From contig NZ_NJER01000001.1 in the NCBI RefSeq assembly GCF_002753895.1, positions 1,488,910-1,552,909 on the forward strand: a DNA stretch of 64,000 bases, written 5' to 3'. Positions 18,719 to 25,761 of this stretch are shown piece after piece; position 1 is the first letter of the stretch; every line of letters begins with the position of its first letter. This DNA comes from Halobacteriovorax sp. JY17. GTDB taxonomy: Bacteria > Bdellovibrionota > Bacteriovoracia > Bacteriovoracales > Bacteriovoracaceae. The notes below the pieces were generated by a model, which had not been told where the DNA came from, searched no databases, and was given only the letters and a program-made list of their open reading frames with translations. A program made the translations under genes and the position numbers.

Positions 18719-19780
18719 ATGACAACGACAGCAGGGAAGCAAGTCGCTAAGAAATCAGGAATGAGAACATTTAAGGCGGGAGAGATTATTTTTAATCAAA
18801 ATGATCCCGCTGACTCTCTATATATTATTCAAAAAGGTCAAATAAGACTCTATATACCAAAAGGTAGAGGCTTCGTTGATTTGGCGATTCTAAGATCTGG
18901 TGAAGTTATTGGTGAGATGGGTTACTTCGATGAAAAGGCCAATAGAAGAAGTTGTTCTGCCGCAGCTCTAGTTACGACAGAGGTCATTGAAATTTCTTAC
19001 AATGCCTTTGGAAAAACAATGTCAGGCCTTAATCCATGGTTTAAGACTATTATTAATACTCTCGCAGATAGACTTAGAAAAACAAATACAAAAGTGAAAG
19101 AACTCGAAACAAACTCGGTCGGTAGAAGTACTGATGGAGGGGTGGGGTCGTATGTCTTTTTCCATTCCACAGATATTATAAAGTTTCTCTCGACACTCTA
19201 TCTTACGTTTAAGTCTCATGGAGAGCTTAAAGATAATAAGATGGAAATTCATATGAATAAGTTGAAATTCTATATGTTTGATATCTACGCTTTCTCAGAA
19301 GTTAAGTATGAAGAGTTTATGAGAATTTGTACTGATAGTAACTTTGTTGAACTAGCAAATGATCCCGATGGCCTACCAAAATTAATGAGAGTTTCAAATA
19401 TAGATCAGTTCAGACAAATGTTAGTCTTCTTTAATACTCAGAGAATAACTGAGGATGCTAAGAAAATAAAAATTTCAAAACGCTGTGAAATTCTTCTTGG
19501 TGCAATTCTAAGACAATTAGCTAAAGCAGGATTAGACAAGGAGAAGGGGCAGGCAAATATCTCATCAATTCTAAGCGACTTTAAAGAGCAAAAGGTTCTT
19601 ATTTCTGATGAAGATATTAGGGATGCCGTCACTTGTAAATTATGTGAAGATATTCTTGTCGGAGAAGGAAATCAGCTAACTTCAGTTGTTCACTACTCTA
19701 AACTAAAGAAGCTCTACCCATCTATTCGTATGATGAATGCAGTCAAGAAAGTTAACGATGAAAAATCGGGGAATAACTAG
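18719..19780 (+). CDS. Cyclic-nucleotide-binding-domain protein
   Basis: Residues 15-135 are a cNMP-binding barrel: FKAGEIIFNQNDPADSLYII, then GEVIGEMGYFDEKANRRSCS, where the Glu and the Arg-Ser pair stand at the phosphate-binding cassette positions. After the C-helix (RKTNTKVKELE) there is no Crp-type helix-turn-helix. Instead about 210 residues of mixed helices and strands follow that I do not recognise. It could be a sensor for c-di-GMP, cAMP or another nucleotide. Position right behind the thiolase hints at a link to carbon metabolism, which is inference. Confidence 0.83.
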   Translation: MTTTAGKQVAKKSGMRTFKAGEIIFNQNDPADSLYIIQKGQIRLYIPKGRGFVDLAILRSGEVIGEMGYFDEKANRRSCSAAALVTTEVIEISYNAFGKTMSGLNPWFKTIINTLADRLRKTNTKVKELETNSVGRSTDGGVGSYVFFHSTDIIKFLSTLYLTFKSHGELKDNKMEIHMNKLKFYMFDIYAFSEVKYEEFMRICTDSNFVELANDPDGLPKLMRVSNIDQFRQMLVFFNTQRITEDAKKIKISKRCEILLGAILRQLAKAGLDKEKGQANISSILSDFKEQKVLISDEDIRDAVTCKLCEDILVGEGNQLTSVVHYSKLKKLYPSIRMMNAVKKVNDEKSGNN

Positions 19781-19800
19781 AAGGAATAATCCTTCTAGTT
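19775..19800. terminator. Perfect palindrome between convergent genes, likely shared terminator
   Basis: AACTAGAAGGA/TCCTTCTAGTT is an 11-base perfect stem with the loop ATAA. The left arm contains the stop codon of the cNMP gene, and the right arm overlaps the stop of the opposite gene. There is no strong T run on either side. Confidence 0.6.
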
Positions 19801-21223
19801 AGTTTACCTGTCCTGTTGAGTGGTATGTCACATTACAAGTTTGGCTATTTGTATAAACGGCACTTGGGTCTAGTTTTATAAAGTAACCAGACTTTGTTTC
19901 TGCTGGAGTCTCTGGTGAGAAATCACTAGATGATTTAATTCTTATATTCTTACTTGCAAAATATTTCGGAGAGCTTCCTGTCTTTAGAAGTTCCCACTTG
20001 GAATTACTAATTAAGGTACCATTAATTTTAACTTCAATACTACTCTCTAGTGGTTGAGCCGGAAGATGGCAATAGCCGTAGTAAGCAGCAGGAGCTTTGT
20101 AAGTAACTTTTAAACAATTTGGAAAAACCACTTCGCCTGATCCGATTAACTCAAGCATATGACCTGTGTAAGGTTCTCCTGCTGAAGGATAATATCTTGT
20201 ATTCTTATTTGTCTGTTTTCCAATATAGTTAAATTCTCCAGAATCTAGCTCTGAACCATTATTTCTAAAGACACGTATTGAACCTGAGTCAACTTCTACG
20301 TTTGATCCAGCAACAGGCCAGAAGTTATACTTATGATTAATTACTTGATCAGCAATAACACTATTCACTTGATCAAAAATATTTGAAAAGGAACTTCCAG
20401 AGAGATTTGTAAAGTCTGACTGACTATAGTTTCCACTAACTGCAATATTGCTAGAGATTTTCTTGTAAGCGATATTAGAGCTTGGCGCAATTGTTAGAAA
20501 CCTCATCATTGAAGAATTTAGTTTTGTAACACCACTACAATTTGTAGGGTAAGCAGAGTAGGAGTTTCTATAACTTCCATTATAAGTACCTCCCTTTAAA
20601 CAGAGAAGGTCATGAGTTATACCATCACCAAGTTTTCTTGCTTCAGTTAAGTTTGATCCATAATCATTTTGCACATAACTGTCATCATCTTCATTAGAAA
20701 GAAGAACTATGATTGTATAAGCATTAGGTCTAAAGACCCCATTGTTTATATTATTTCTAATGAGATCTCTTGCTCTTGCGCCACCTGCTTCAGCTGCACC
20801 ATTTTGCAAAGGTAGCGCTTCAATTGCTGAGACAGCACTTGATTTTGAAATAATATTAACACCAGCAGGAGTACTTCCTGCTCTACTAAAGAAGTAAGAG
20901 TTATTATTTCCACTACCAACAAGGGGAGCAATCATAACCTGATAATCAAATCTATCAGAAATATAATTAAGTGTATTATTGAGTGCTGACTTCTTATCTG
21001 GGTGTATATAGTTAGTTGAAGTTGAATTATCCCAAAGAAAGAGGAGATCAACTGGTGGTCTAATTAATGTATAGTCTGAACAAACATCAGTGCTACCTGT
21101 CTCTACTGGAGCTGTTGAAATTGTAGAATTTTGCTTACCCACACCGAACTCTTCTTTGTTACAGGAGAGAAAGAGTAGAGAAGTAATTAATATAAGTATC
21201 CACTTAGTATTATTTTTAATCAT
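19799..21223 (-). CDS. Lipoprotein with von Willebrand A-like domain
   Basis: The signal peptide ends in a lipobox (LLFLSCNKEEF), so the mature protein is lipid-anchored. Residues 55-290 look like a VWA domain: VDLLFLWDNSTSTNY supplies a D-x-S-x-S metal-site motif, and IIVLLSNEDDDSY fits a later strand and loop. The last 180 or so residues contain strand-rich segments with a few Cys that may pair (CLKVTYKAPAAYYGYCH). The protein is Asn/Ser-rich. The role may be surface adhesion or complex assembly. It is a single gene, convergent with the cNMP-binding protein. Confidence 0.8.
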   Translation of the reverse strand: MIKNNTKWILILITSLLFLSCNKEEFGVGKQNSTISTAPVETGSTDVCSDYTLIRPPVDLLFLWDNSTSTNYIHPDKKSALNNTLNYISDRFDYQVMIAPLVGSGNNNSYFFSRAGSTPAGVNIISKSSAVSAIEALPLQNGAAEAGGARARDLIRNNINNGVFRPNAYTIIVLLSNEDDDSYVQNDYGSNLTEARKLGDGITHDLLCLKGGTYNGSYRNSYSAYPTNCSGVTKLNSSMMRFLTIAPSSNIAYKKISSNIAVSGNYSQSDFTNLSGSSFSNIFDQVNSVIADQVINHKYNFWPVAGSNVEVDSGSIRVFRNNGSELDSGEFNYIGKQTNKNTRYYPSAGEPYTGHMLELIGSGEVVFPNCLKVTYKAPAAYYGYCHLPAQPLESSIEVKINGTLISNSKWELLKTGSSPKYFASKNIRIKSSSDFSPETPAETKSGYFIKLDPSAVYTNSQTCNVTYHSTGQVN

Positions 21224-21390: not shown

Positions 21391-22158
21391 ATGACTAGTT
21401 GGTATTATGTAGAAGGAAAAGATCGTGTTGGGCCTGTGGAAGAGCCTAAGTTAAGAGAGCTTTTACAGAGTGGTGCCTTAGATTCTGAAAGTTATATTTG
21501 GACTAAAGGATTTGATAATTGGAAGAAGTTCCATGAAGTTGAAGAACTTGGCCACCTGCTTGGCGCAGAAGTATTGGAAGAAGCTCCTTCACAAAGTAGC
21601 TCTTTCAACTGGAAAGGAATTTCTAAGTCAGAAAAAATATTTATGATTAAAATTGGAATAGATAGAGGGACTCAAGAAGTTGAGTATGGGCCTTATGATC
21701 TAGATGAATTAGTGCAGGCTTTTTCTGAAAAGAGAATAAATGAAAAAACTCTTATCTATGTACCAGGGCAGATGAAAGAATGGATATTCTTGGCCGATGT
21801 GCCAATTTATGAAAGTCTCTTTAATACTATGCCTCCAGTTATTGACGAAATTGATAGAAGAAAGAATTTAAGAAAACCATTTGTTGCTAGAATGTTCTTT
21901 CATGATCATGAAGACTTCTTTGAAGGTGTTTGTAGAGATATTTCAATTGGTGGATTACAAATACTCGTCTCTAATTTTCCAGGATCTGTCGGAGAAGAAG
22001 TTTCGATGAATGTTCATCCTGACAATTCTGATTACTGTTTTACAGCAAAGGGTGAGATTGTAAGATTACTAGATGGCGGACAAGGATTTTCATTAAGGTT
22101 TATAGAACTAAATAATGAAGCGAAGAGCTCAATAGAAAGCTATGTTAATAGAGGCTAG
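21391..22158 (+). CDS. Tandem GYF-like and PilZ protein
   Basis: Two GYF_2-like units (residues 3-55, WYYVEGKDRVGPVEEPKL; about 85-140, EVEYGPYDLDELVQAF) precede a PilZ domain (about 155-250). The PilZ part has RRKNLRKPF, where PilZ proteins carry R-x-x-x-R, and DISIGG, matching D-x-S-x-x-G, so c-di-GMP binding is likely. It may couple c-di-GMP to binding of proline-rich partners. The start has GGAGAG upstream. The next gene begins inside its last codons. Confidence 0.87.
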   Translation: MTSWYYVEGKDRVGPVEEPKLRELLQSGALDSESYIWTKGFDNWKKFHEVEELGHLLGAEVLEEAPSQSSSFNWKGISKSEKIFMIKIGIDRGTQEVEYGPYDLDELVQAFSEKRINEKTLIYVPGQMKEWIFLADVPIYESLFNTMPPVIDEIDRRKNLRKPFVARMFFHDHEDFFEGVCRDISIGGLQILVSNFPGSVGEEVSMNVHPDNSDYCFTAKGEIVRLLDGGQGFSLRFIELNNEAKSSIESYVNRG

Positions 22159-23032
22159 GGAAGAGTTTAAGTTCTTAGAGGTAAACTCTTTTAGCATAAA
22201 ATCTCATTCAAAGAGAGAAAGCCTCTACGTAAAAGAGTGGAAGACCAAGAAAACAAGAGTCTTACACCACTTTATAATTCTACACGATATATGCGATCAT
22301 CATGGTCGCTATGAGCTTCTAGCAAAAGATTTATGGAAGAAGTTCGATGAAGAAATTAATATTACATTTTTAGATTTGAAGGGACACGGGCTAAGTTCGG
22401 GAACACGATCTTATGTGGAAAACTTTGATGAGTATATTGAAGACCTTCATCTTATTTTAAATGAAGACGAAACACATGATACCAAGAAAGTTCTTATTGG
22501 ACAGGGTTTAGGTGGATTAGTTGCACTATCCTATATCCAAAAATATGAATTAATCGCTAGAACACAAATAAGCTCTGTTATTCTTAGTAATCCACTTCTT
22601 TATTTGAATATTGAGATTTATAACTTCTATGAAAGTGTTTTAAAAAAAATAAATCAATTTGCAGGTAAGATACGATTCCCTTATAAAATTAAGGGAGGTG
22701 ATTTAACCAGCGATAGAATTCGAATTGAAAGTTATAACTCGGATCCTCTTATCAATCATTACATGTCTATTTCACTGGTTGAAGAAATTGTTAGAAAGAG
22801 CAAGCAATTGCTCGATTACTCTTATTTCTTAGATGTTCCACTGTTGATGCTACTTGGGAAGAATGATTTTCTTGTAAACTGGAGTAAATGCTCACTATTT
22901 ATGAAGGGAATGCCTAAGCAATTAGCAAGTGAGTGTATGTATGCGCATTCTGGTCACGATCTCTTCAATGAAAAAAATAGAGACAAGGTCTTTAATGATA
23001 TTTATAATTGGATAGAAGATATCCATAGGTAA
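22142..23032 (+). CDS. Alpha/beta-hydrolase of monoacylglycerol-lipase type, nucleophile missing
   Basis: Layout of the serine aminopeptidase S33/monoglyceride lipase group: LHDICDHHGRYELLAKDL for the oxyanion region, FLDLKGHGLSSG, and the nucleophile elbow. The elbow reads LIGQGLGGLVAL, so Gly122 stands where Ser is expected in G-x-S-x-G. The other triad members appear intact: Asp242 in GKNDFLV and His272 in SGHDLFNE. It is thus likely a binding protein or a dead enzyme unless another residue substitutes. The start overlaps the PilZ gene by 17 bases; 3 bases separate it from the lipoprotein downstream. Confidence 0.85.
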   Translation: MLIEAREEFKFLEVNSFSIKSHSKRESLYVKEWKTKKTRVLHHFIILHDICDHHGRYELLAKDLWKKFDEEINITFLDLKGHGLSSGTRSYVENFDEYIEDLHLILNEDETHDTKKVLIGQGLGGLVALSYIQKYELIARTQISSVILSNPLLYLNIEIYNFYESVLKKINQFAGKIRFPYKIKGGDLTSDRIRIESYNSDPLINHYMSISLVEEIVRKSKQLLDYSYFLDVPLLMLLGKNDFLVNWSKCSLFMKGMPKQLASECMYAHSGHDLFNEKNRDKVFNDIYNWIEDIHR

Positions 23033-23035
23033 TTT

Positions 23036-23551
23036 ATGAAAAAAATCATTCTCTTGTTAGCTCTCTTACTTACTACATCGTGTTCATTAACTGGAAGAAA
23101 TATTGTCCAAGTTAATGACTTTGAGCTTGCGGGAGGCTCTGTAGGAAATAGTTCTTGGAAAGATGAGTTAAAACTCAAGAGGATTTCCTGGTACCAAGAA
23201 ATGACTATGGTTTTTGATGTTCTTCTTGGAGAAGTTACACCAAATTCTCCCTTCTATGACTGGTTTTCAACTTCGGAAAAAGTTTCTTTAAAGAGCTGTT
23301 CTAAGAGTTACCTTGCCCTATATTATTCAAGTGCAAGCGAAGTAATCTCAAAGAATAACTTCATAAAGCAGGCCAGCTCCCAAGGCTTTGAAAAATATAT
23401 TATGAATGAATTTGCAGGAGCTCTAAGGCTTCATCCCCAATATATTACGAATTCTTTCCAACTCTATGATATTGCAATTTTTTGTTCTAAATCAAACTTG
23501 GGTAATAGTCTCAAGGTTGAATTTCCAAATTTTAAGACAATTTCTTTCTAA
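23036..23551 (+). CDS. Small lipoprotein of unknown function
   Basis: 171 residues with a lipoprotein signal (LLALLLTTSCSLTGRN). The mature part has two or three Cys and a Trp/Tyr-rich middle (RISWYQEMTMVFDVLL). I recognise no family. It is the third gene of a tight trio with the GYF-PilZ protein and the pseudo-hydrolase, which suggests an envelope role tied to c-di-GMP. Confidence 0.78.
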   Translation: MKKIILLLALLLTTSCSLTGRNIVQVNDFELAGGSVGNSSWKDELKLKRISWYQEMTMVFDVLLGEVTPNSPFYDWFSTSEKVSLKSCSKSYLALYYSSASEVISKNNFIKQASSQGFEKYIMNEFAGALRLHPQYITNSFQLYDIAIFCSKSNLGNSLKVEFPNFKTISF

Positions 23552-23715: not shown

Positions 23716-25761
23716 GTGGATAGAGAAAGATTTGGTCGTTATTTAATTTTAGATCACCTAATAGATGGTGGGATGGCAAAAATTTGTCGTGCTAGATTTC
23801 TAGGTGAGCAAGCGGACAAAGTTGTGGCCATAAAAATGGTTCAACCTCAATTCTCAAAAGATGAAAATTTTAGAATTATGTTCATGGATGAAATTAAAAC
23901 TACTTTTGGTCTCTTACATCCAAATATTGTTCAAACATACGACTATGGAATGCAACAAGATCAACTCTTTGTTGCAATGGAGTATTGTGACGGACGAAAT
24001 CTAAAAGAATATTTAGATAAACTAAAAGAAAGAAAATTTGTTTTTCCTGTCGAAATTTCAGTTTATATCATTACCCAAGTTTGCCAAGGTTTGCATTATG
24101 CTCATACTTTGACAGATAAATTAACAGGGAAAGATTTACAAATTATTCATAGAGATATTTCTCCGCATAATATCATGCTGACTTTTGATGGTGCAATTAA
24201 AGTCATCGACTTTGGTATCGCTAAGACAGAAACAAATTCAGAAGCAACACAGGCTGGAACAATCAAAGGGAAACTCTCTTATCTTGCTCCAGAATACTTA
24301 GAGGGACATGAGCTTGATCCTCGTTACGATGAATTTGCCGTTGGTATTACACTTTGGGAAATGCTTTGTTCTAGAAAGCTGTTTAAAGCTTCTAATGATC
24401 TTGCTGTTTTAAAGAAGATTCAGGAATGTAAAGTTCCAGCACCTTCTAGTATTAACCCTAATGTTCCTAAAGAGCTTGATGAAATAGTTTTAAAGGCGTT
24501 AAGCAAAGATAGAAATAAGAGATTTGAAAACTTAGACCAACTTAACAGAGCTCTTATTAAGTTCCTATATTCTAACTATCCTGATTTTAATTCATCTGAT
24601 TTAGGATTCTTTGCAAAAGAGTTATTTAAAGAAGAGATTAAAAAAGATAGAGAGAAGCTATTTGAGTTTGGAAAAATTGATTTAAAACCTTATCTTGAAG
24701 ATTTAAAGAGGGAACAGATTGGTGGAACTGGAGGAGCTTCTAGTTCTGAAAGAGAGTCTGTAGAGTCTGATGCAAGTCCTGCAGATAGAGGAAAGGAGCA
24801 AGTTCTCGACTTTGGGTTTGAAGAAGAGGAACCACTTACAAAAACAAAGACTAGGGCGAGATCAAGAGCTCAAACTAAGTCTAGTGTTGATATAGATGAG
24901 AAATTTGGTCATCTGGCCGATGGAACTCAAGAATTATCAATAGGAAAAGCTAGGCCAAAGACTGTTGTAAATAAATCAATCGATGGAAGTACACGAAAAG
25001 TTTCAAGACCAGATGCTACTAAAACCAGAAAAACATCTTCTGGTAGAACAACTATTAAGAAAGTAAAAAAGAAAAAAGACAGTGGATTAGTTACGAAAGT
25101 CGCCTCAATTGCAGTTCTTGCTGGAGGATTATTCTTTGGGTATTCAAATATGAATATGGTTAAAGAATTAGTAGGGCTTGAAGTAAAGTCAAATCCAGCC
25201 ACTCAAAACACTACTAAGAGAATTCCTTCGTCTGATACTCAGAGTGAAGCAGGTGTTGATGTCATTAAAGAAGAGGCTGGAGAGGCTACGATCACACTTA
25301 AGGGATTTAATAAGCATAAGCAGAACGTATTTATAGATGGTAACCAAATAAAAGTGGATTTTTTAAACTCATTCAAGGTTGCTTCTGGAAAAGATCACTG
25401 GTTGAGAGTTGAGACTTCTGGACGTAAGCACTTTATTCAAAAAATTTCACCAGCAGAAGGTGATAATGAGAGTATTGAAGTTCAAGAAACTAGCTATCAA
25501 GGATATGGATACTTAAAGATGTCTAGAAGTTGTGCTAGAGGAAGTATTAGCTTTACTATGTTTGGAGAACCCAGAGAGGAAGAGCTTCCATTTAGAGGAA
25601 GAAGAGGGATTCCATTTCCAATCAGTAGTAAGAATACAGAGAAGGGTGTTCCAACTCCTCAAAGTATCTTCTATAAGATTGGAAAGCAAAATATAGAAAG
25701 AAAAATCGACTTTGAATTAATTGAAGATGCAGTTGTCGATTTCTGTGAACTAATTATTTAA
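23716..25761 (+). CDS. Transmembrane Ser/Thr protein kinase (PknB/PrkC type)
   Basis: Hanks-type kinase in residues 5-280: GGMAKICRARF, VAIKMV with the ATP lysine, IHRDISPHNIMLT as catalytic loop, VIDFGIAK as DFG motif and GTIKGKLSYLAPE as activation segment. A long Ser/Thr/Arg-rich juxtamembrane region (about 330-455) could hold autophosphorylation sites for FHA proteins. One membrane helix (VASIAVLAGGLFFGYSNM) precedes a periplasmic part of about 200 residues with a PEGA-like stretch (KHKQNVFIDGNQIKV). The start is GTG. It is convergent with the Nramp-like gene with a 12-base overlap. Confidence 0.92.
   Translation: MDRERFGRYLILDHLIDGGMAKICRARFLGEQADKVVAIKMVQPQFSKDENFRIMFMDEIKTTFGLLHPNIVQTYDYGMQQDQLFVAMEYCDGRNLKEYLDKLKERKFVFPVEISVYIITQVCQGLHYAHTLTDKLTGKDLQIIHRDISPHNIMLTFDGAIKVIDFGIAKTETNSEATQAGTIKGKLSYLAPEYLEGHELDPRYDEFAVGITLWEMLCSRKLFKASNDLAVLKKIQECKVPAPSSINPNVPKELDEIVLKALSKDRNKRFENLDQLNRALIKFLYSNYPDFNSSDLGFFAKELFKEEIKKDREKLFEFGKIDLKPYLEDLKREQIGGTGGASSSERESVESDASPADRGKEQVLDFGFEEEEPLTKTKTRARSRAQTKSSVDIDEKFGHLADGTQELSIGKARPKTVVNKSIDGSTRKVSRPDATKTRKTSSGRTTIKKVKKKKDSGLVTKVASIAVLAGGLFFGYSNMNMVKELVGLEVKSNPATQNTTKRIPSSDTQSEAGVDVIKEEAGEATITLKGFNKHKQNVFIDGNQIKVDFLNSFKVASGKDHWLRVETSGRKHFIQKISPAEGDNESIEVQETSYQGYGYLKMSRSCARGSISFTMFGEPREEELPFRGRRGIPFPISSKNTEKGVPTPQSIFYKIGKQNIERKIDFELIEDAVVDFCELII

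Follow-up and report, generated by a model that had tools for sequence, protein, structure and literature searches.

The closest solved structures by sequence to the protein described here are monoacylglycerol lipases (1.3e-11 for the single protein), which also give the best match when a profile of its clade is compared with solved structures (1.7e-33). Human MGLL (3jw8) and the Mycobacterium tuberculosis enzyme (6eic) resemble it over nearly its whole length and share with it the HG..GRY, GHGxSxG, elbow, and DPL landmarks in the alignment. The protein differs from these lipases in carrying Gly122 in place of Ser and Asp49 in place of the oxyanion-loop Gly, and in being linked to a PilZ gene. 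It is encoded in Halobacteriovorax sp. JY17, within a 64,000-nucleotide stretch of DNA that we call the window. PilZ-linked homologues from outside the family (L139, L143, L199, L201-L215) match the same Hydrolase_4-type profile, but differ from the window protein in having an intact Ser-Asp-His triad and HG motif.

Non-enzymatic members of the alpha/beta-hydrolase fold, with the triad replaced, include the NDRG proteins and neuroligins, some of which act in protein-protein interaction, according to the cited sections of PMC7022630. The cases given there are eukaryotic and not close in sequence to the window protein. The Pfam Ndr family gives weak matches to two of the 53 Gly members, the better one at 9.1e-05, and is absent from the window protein's own Pfam matches at 0.001. 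The best NCBIfam match of the window protein is BipL of Pseudomonas aeruginosa, at 55 bits, far below the 450-bit cut-off. The cited part of the BipL study reports that this protein affects the biofilm matrix and that a Ser-to-Ala exchange phenocopies the deletion (PMC10597414); its active-site Ser is present and needed, unlike in the window protein. The main text of that study does not mention PilZ (PMC10597414). Our literature searches returned nothing on the present pseudo-hydrolase, on a GYF/PilZ-hydrolase pair, or on PilZ in Halobacteriovorax.

Sequence and active site of the window protein

The open reading frame (22142..23032, + strand) begins with ATG and encodes 296 residues. Its translation, Pfam match, and family alignment identify a pseudo-hydrolase of the Hydrolase_4 / monoacylglycerol-lipase type with Gly at the place of the nucleophilic Ser. 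An earlier note on this DNA had described just such a replacement in a fold that otherwise looked well preserved, and the observation holds. Pfam PF12146 (Hydrolase_4) is matched full-length, over residues 44-279, with 1.5e-39 and 136.1 bits against a cut-off of 27, and all 53 Gly-type members match it at a threshold of 0.001. The nucleophile elbow reads GQGLGG (residues 120-125; 22499..22516, +); Gly122, encoded by GGT at 22505-22507, occupies the nucleophile place and the elbow contains no Ser. The remaining triad residues of a serine hydrolase are in position: Asp242, the former acid, in GKNDFLV (22865..22867, +), and His272, the former base, in HSGHDLF (22955..22957, +). A second, clade-specific substitution puts His48-Asp49 (22283..22288, +) where the lipases have the HG of the oxyanion loop; the motif containing Gly at residue 49 is what we take to be the H-G oxyanion motif. 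The D78-x-x-G81-H-G83-x-S85-x-G87-x-R89 motif (22373..22408, +) is common to live and dead members.

The nearest named records are from Bacteriovoracaceae bacterium UBA3083 (81% identity) and Halobacteriovorax marinus isolate 36_234_T64 (73%). An AlphaFold2 model built from three sequences had a mean pLDDT of 39.3 and a pTM of 0.38, and was discarded. The window genome contains 18 Hydrolase_4-type matches, 16 of them over the cut-off and the window protein included, and GxSxG elbows are found in several of the ten such loci that were fetched. Searching this genome with the window protein returns only itself, and hence no close paralogue.

Residue 122 across the family

A homologue search of 129 family genomes gave a match in 125, and the locus could be read in 119. 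The other 10 (G005, G016, G046, G079, G088, G113, G128, G130, G134, and G137) yielded a paralogue only, or nothing was fetched. In two of the 119 the locus is cut by contig ends. We aligned 104 distinct proteins first and added more loci afterwards, counting a locus as conserved when a PilZ, lipoprotein-like, or kinase neighbour was visible. Of 105 copies readable at the conserved locus, 61 lack the nucleophile (59 Gly, one Ala in L128, and one Asn in the shortened L176) and 44 carry Ser. The former span 25 genera and the latter 11, and no genus contains both states. Among the well-aligned Gly-type rows, 52 of 53 have Gly in column 122 and the other has Ala, and all 37 Ser orthologues have Ser. 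The Ser-orthologue counts exclude four family Ser paralogues that lack PilZ (L027, L029, L130, and L131) and, from the 104 aligned proteins, 10 "phylum" rows that lie outside the family. L125, found by HMM, carries Ser, and the hydrolase fragment at L200 is unreadable at this position. One genome, G099, has two copies; the second (L059) is possibly contaminating sequence in common with genus g7. L059 and L179 (G070) have neighbour genes that do not differ in the tree and identical contig coordinates, in genomes assigned to different genera, so that one of the assemblies probably contains a contig that belongs elsewhere.

The earlier note had proposed that Gly conserved across relatives at residue 122 would mark a pseudo-enzyme lineage, and that orthologues carrying Ser would make it a strain-level mutation. 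Each of the five genomes from the window's genus has Gly, and the lineage extends over 25 genera of the family, as the first proposal anticipated; the orthologues with Ser (44 loci) all belong to 11 other genera. All four Gly codons are in use for residue 122 (GGG 22, GGA 15, GGT 9, GGC 6), indicating that the codon turned over as the residue stayed and that Gly at this place is no chance. A mutation of the strain, or a sequencing error, is refuted by this combination of genus-wide Gly, 25 genera, and four codons; we found nothing in its favour, and its probability is practically nil.

Other conserved positions and selection

Residue 49 is Asp in 50 of the 53 Gly-type rows, Asn in two, and Gly in one, and Gly in 37/37 Ser orthologues. 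Over 141 aligned rows, including 10 copies fetched a second time, the pair Asp49/Gly122 occurs 52 times, Gly49/Ser122 80 times, and Gly49/Gly122 once. In the first neighbour-gene tree, the lone Gly49/Gly122 row (L023, G022) is basal in the Gly clade of 52 rows; its branch is long, and it gives no more than a hint that the nucleophile changed before residue 49. The rest of the triad has fared differently. Of the 53 Gly-type rows, 25 retain Asp242 and 47 retain His272, the other six, from five genera, having Asn, Arg, Leu, or Tyr at residue 272; both residues are present in 21 of the 53 rows without Ser. With Asp242 gone from 28 rows and His272 from six, the triad is not retained as a unit. Eight positions are invariant in all 53 rows: Asp78, Gly81, Gly83, Ser85, Gly87, Arg89, Asn150, and Trp290. 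Ser85 is the sole invariant Ser of the Gly rows, and is equally kept in the Ser enzymes (36/37).

Values of dN/dS from a counting method are 0.048-0.165 in six of 12 Gly pairs with finite dS and 0.027-0.121 in five of six Ser pairs; these are rough figures, with dS mostly above 1.5 and saturated. By them the Gly pairs resemble both the Ser pairs and the neighbour genes, and the low values point to purifying selection. Mean column entropy is 2.40 bits for the Gly rows versus 1.91 for the Ser rows. The Gly rows are thus more variable, indicating weaker constraint.

Gene neighbourhood

The pseudo-hydrolase gene follows a gene (21391..22158, +) for a protein with two GYF_2 domains and a PilZ domain (Pfam 9.3e-23 and 3.1e-12, respectively). 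The two genes overlap by 17 bases (22142-22158), an overlap common to all five genomes of the window's genus. The GYF/PilZ gene is located directly upstream on the same strand in 52/52 Gly rows and in the Ala row, with short gaps or overlaps throughout these 53. The same arrangement, upstream and on the same strand, is found in 36 of 37 Ser orthologues, the remaining one being cut by a contig end. Three bases after the pseudo-hydrolase stop begins a 171-aa gene (23036..23551, +) that has no Pfam match and appears lipoprotein-like by eye; it is present in 50/53 Gly/Ala rows. A serine/threonine protein kinase (23716..25761, +; Pkinase 2e-41) is likewise downstream in 50/53. The conserved cluster is headed by a cyclic-nucleotide-binding-domain protein (18719..19780, +; cNMP_binding 2.3e-19), whose position is conserved wherever the fetched stretch extends that far. 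Between it and the PilZ gene is a 474-aa gene (19799..21223, -) without a Pfam match, which lies on the opposite strand in 51/53 Gly/Ala rows.

RxxxR and DxSxxG, which we take to be the PilZ motif, are present in the window's PilZ protein and most of its relatives. In genus g14, three loci (L074, L114, and L046) encode an upstream protein with two GYF_2 domains but no PilZ domain recognizable by Pfam, followed by a retained pseudo-hydrolase. The PilZ domain is unrecognizable in three of four g14 proteins tested, and that of L126, from the same genus, is barely over the cut-off. Since g14 keeps the pseudo-hydrolase without a recognizable PilZ domain, c-di-GMP binding by the upstream protein does not appear to be what retains it. 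A bond to the GYF part or to another cluster member is more likely than one to c-di-GMP itself.

Outside the family, in loci picked for their GYF/PilZ match, all 18 PilZ-linked homologues readable at residue 122 have Ser-Asp-His. Sixteen of these hydrolases are directly downstream of the GYF/PilZ gene on the same strand, and L201 and L212 are on the other strand. The uniform Ser-Asp-His of these homologues makes a live-type enzyme beside PilZ most simply the ancestral state.

Phylogeny and gene loss

The quick trees, of the protein and of the neighbour genes alike, require two changes to explain the Gly rows, and the backbone of the protein tree is unresolved. Constraining these rows to one clade gives a likelihood 18.4 lnL units better than the free search, and this clade is not rejected (p-AU 0.79). 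In the neighbour-gene tree, 52 of 53 Gly/Ala rows fall in one group with a support of 90, within which 51 rows group at 99; another group, supported at 98, contains 35 of 36 family Ser rows. On neighbour genes alone, a single Gly clade is not rejected (p-AU 0.413). Two rows depart from this pattern in the neighbour trees. Ser row L088 lies among or near the Gly rows, and Gly row L039 lies beside L088 or at the root; L088 has only a fragmentary PilZ gene, and each of the two rows sits on a long branch. One or two extra Ser losses are possible from these placements. In the outgroup-rooted neighbour tree, Ser rows L011, L037, and L088 are in a large group with Gly rows, with uneven support.

In the rooted protein tree the backbone of the Gly rows is again unresolved, and the Ser clade arises from within it. 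We considered a reversal from Gly to Ser, at which this poorly supported topology hints, and rejected it; residues 49 and 122 must both revert, and the scenario conflicts with the neighbour-gene tree.

In thirteen further genomes, from nine genera, the hydrolase gene is missing from its place after PilZ. At these loci (L177, L181, L183-L187, L189-L191, L193, L194, and L196), GYF/PilZ is followed directly by the lipoprotein-like gene or the kinase. On the rooted neighbour-gene tree, all 13 are on the Gly side and none is in the Ser-row groups. Loss only on the Gly side, with none among 37 Ser loci, has a Fisher p of 0.004, uncorrected for relatedness. Shortened copies are found at L176 (242 aa) and L192 (246 aa). 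The Gly lineage is probably the product of one ancient Ser loss, or possibly of a few; the gene was then retained over a long time before it disappeared in several descendants.

Function and alternative explanations

A pseudo-enzyme is defined by a conserved catalytic motif that is missing by sequence, in the cited portion of PMC10211241. Viewed across the whole lineage, the catalytic motif is missing here. Our preferred reading, based on sequence comparison and with a probability of roughly two in three, is that the window protein belongs to a pseudo-hydrolase lineage that arose long ago, probably once, and persists because it serves the PilZ cluster without catalysis, as a partner or by binding a ligand. 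The dN/dS values and the conserved Asp49 favour such a retained function, and the gene losses argue against a universal one.

A rival reading is that the protein is an enzyme that became useless long ago and is in slow decay, drifting toward loss, with Gly122 persisting only because a strained elbow turn favours Gly. The faster evolution of the Gly rows, the shortened L176 and L192, and the 13 gene absences confined to the Gly side are what one would expect from such drift. We nevertheless consider it unlikely, given dN/dS well below 1, a new residue, Asp49, fixed in 50 of 53 rows, Asn150 and Trp290 invariant in all 53, and open reading frames retained across 25 genera; furthermore, the window genome holds no close Ser paralogue that would make the pseudo-hydrolase redundant. 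The earlier note's argument for selection rather than decay stands for most genera but not for some, in which the protein is eroding or gone. Its suggestion of a binding or structural role, which we likewise infer, gains from dN/dS below 1 and from Asp49.

Continued catalysis would have to proceed by other means. Plant methylketone synthase 1 provides a model for serine-independent chemistry, and its chains are among the weaker PDB profile matches (6e-05). An enzyme of the lyase or decarboxylase type could use His272, present in 47 of 53 Gly-type rows, together with the new Asp49, present in 50. One conserved reaction should not tolerate replacement of His272 in six rows and of Asp242 in 28 with the cluster intact, and there are no metabolic genes among the neighbours scanned, which makes this rather improbable. 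The idea of a nucleophile supplied elsewhere, raised by the earlier note, fares worse still. The triad acid and base do remain in the window protein; across the Gly rows, however, no new conserved Ser, Cys, or Thr has appeared save Ser86 (40/53), the only invariant Ser (Ser85) is shared with the Ser enzymes, and Asp242 and His272 are not kept together, the former being lost in 28 rows. A substitute from another residue or from a partner protein is accordingly very improbable.

For a retained non-catalytic partner, the course of events may be pictured as follows. A homologous hydrolase stands beside a GYF/PilZ gene in several families of the phylum, with Ser-Asp-His intact outside the window's family. 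In a large part of that family the nucleophile became Gly and the oxyanion-loop Gly became Asp; the nucleophile was probably lost a single time, in a common ancestor of 25 or more genera. Both changed residues then stayed while Asp242 drifted. The pseudo-hydrolase would no longer perform serine-hydrolase chemistry, and is probably retained because it folds beside the co-translated GYF/PilZ protein, most likely in contact with it. It could serve as a structural partner, or its old pocket (His48, Asp49, His272, the D78..R89 loop, and D201-P-L) could bind a ligand and pass the input on to the PilZ / lipoprotein-like / Ser-Thr-kinase module. The role would be dispensable in several genera, where the gene was lost. 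More tentatively, Asp49 and Gly122 could represent a pocket rebuilt as a receptor, in which a small ligand, perhaps a lipid or acyl product of prey digestion, is bound uncut and signalled to the GYF/PilZ protein. Some plant receptors arose from alpha/beta-hydrolases, and this would be a bacterial counterpart.

Prey invasion by Bdellovibrio begins under the control of c-di-GMP from DgcB, as described in the cited part of PMC6733907. The present locus adds a PilZ-linked module in relatives of predatory bacteria, of which we found none in the literature searched. Dead enzymes usually come to notice as isolated cases, but the syntenic gene described here exists within one family in three states, as a live-type enzyme, a conserved pseudo-enzyme, and a gene loss, with the neighbours unchanged. 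These three states make the non-catalytic function directly testable by comparison of Ser and Gly orthologues.
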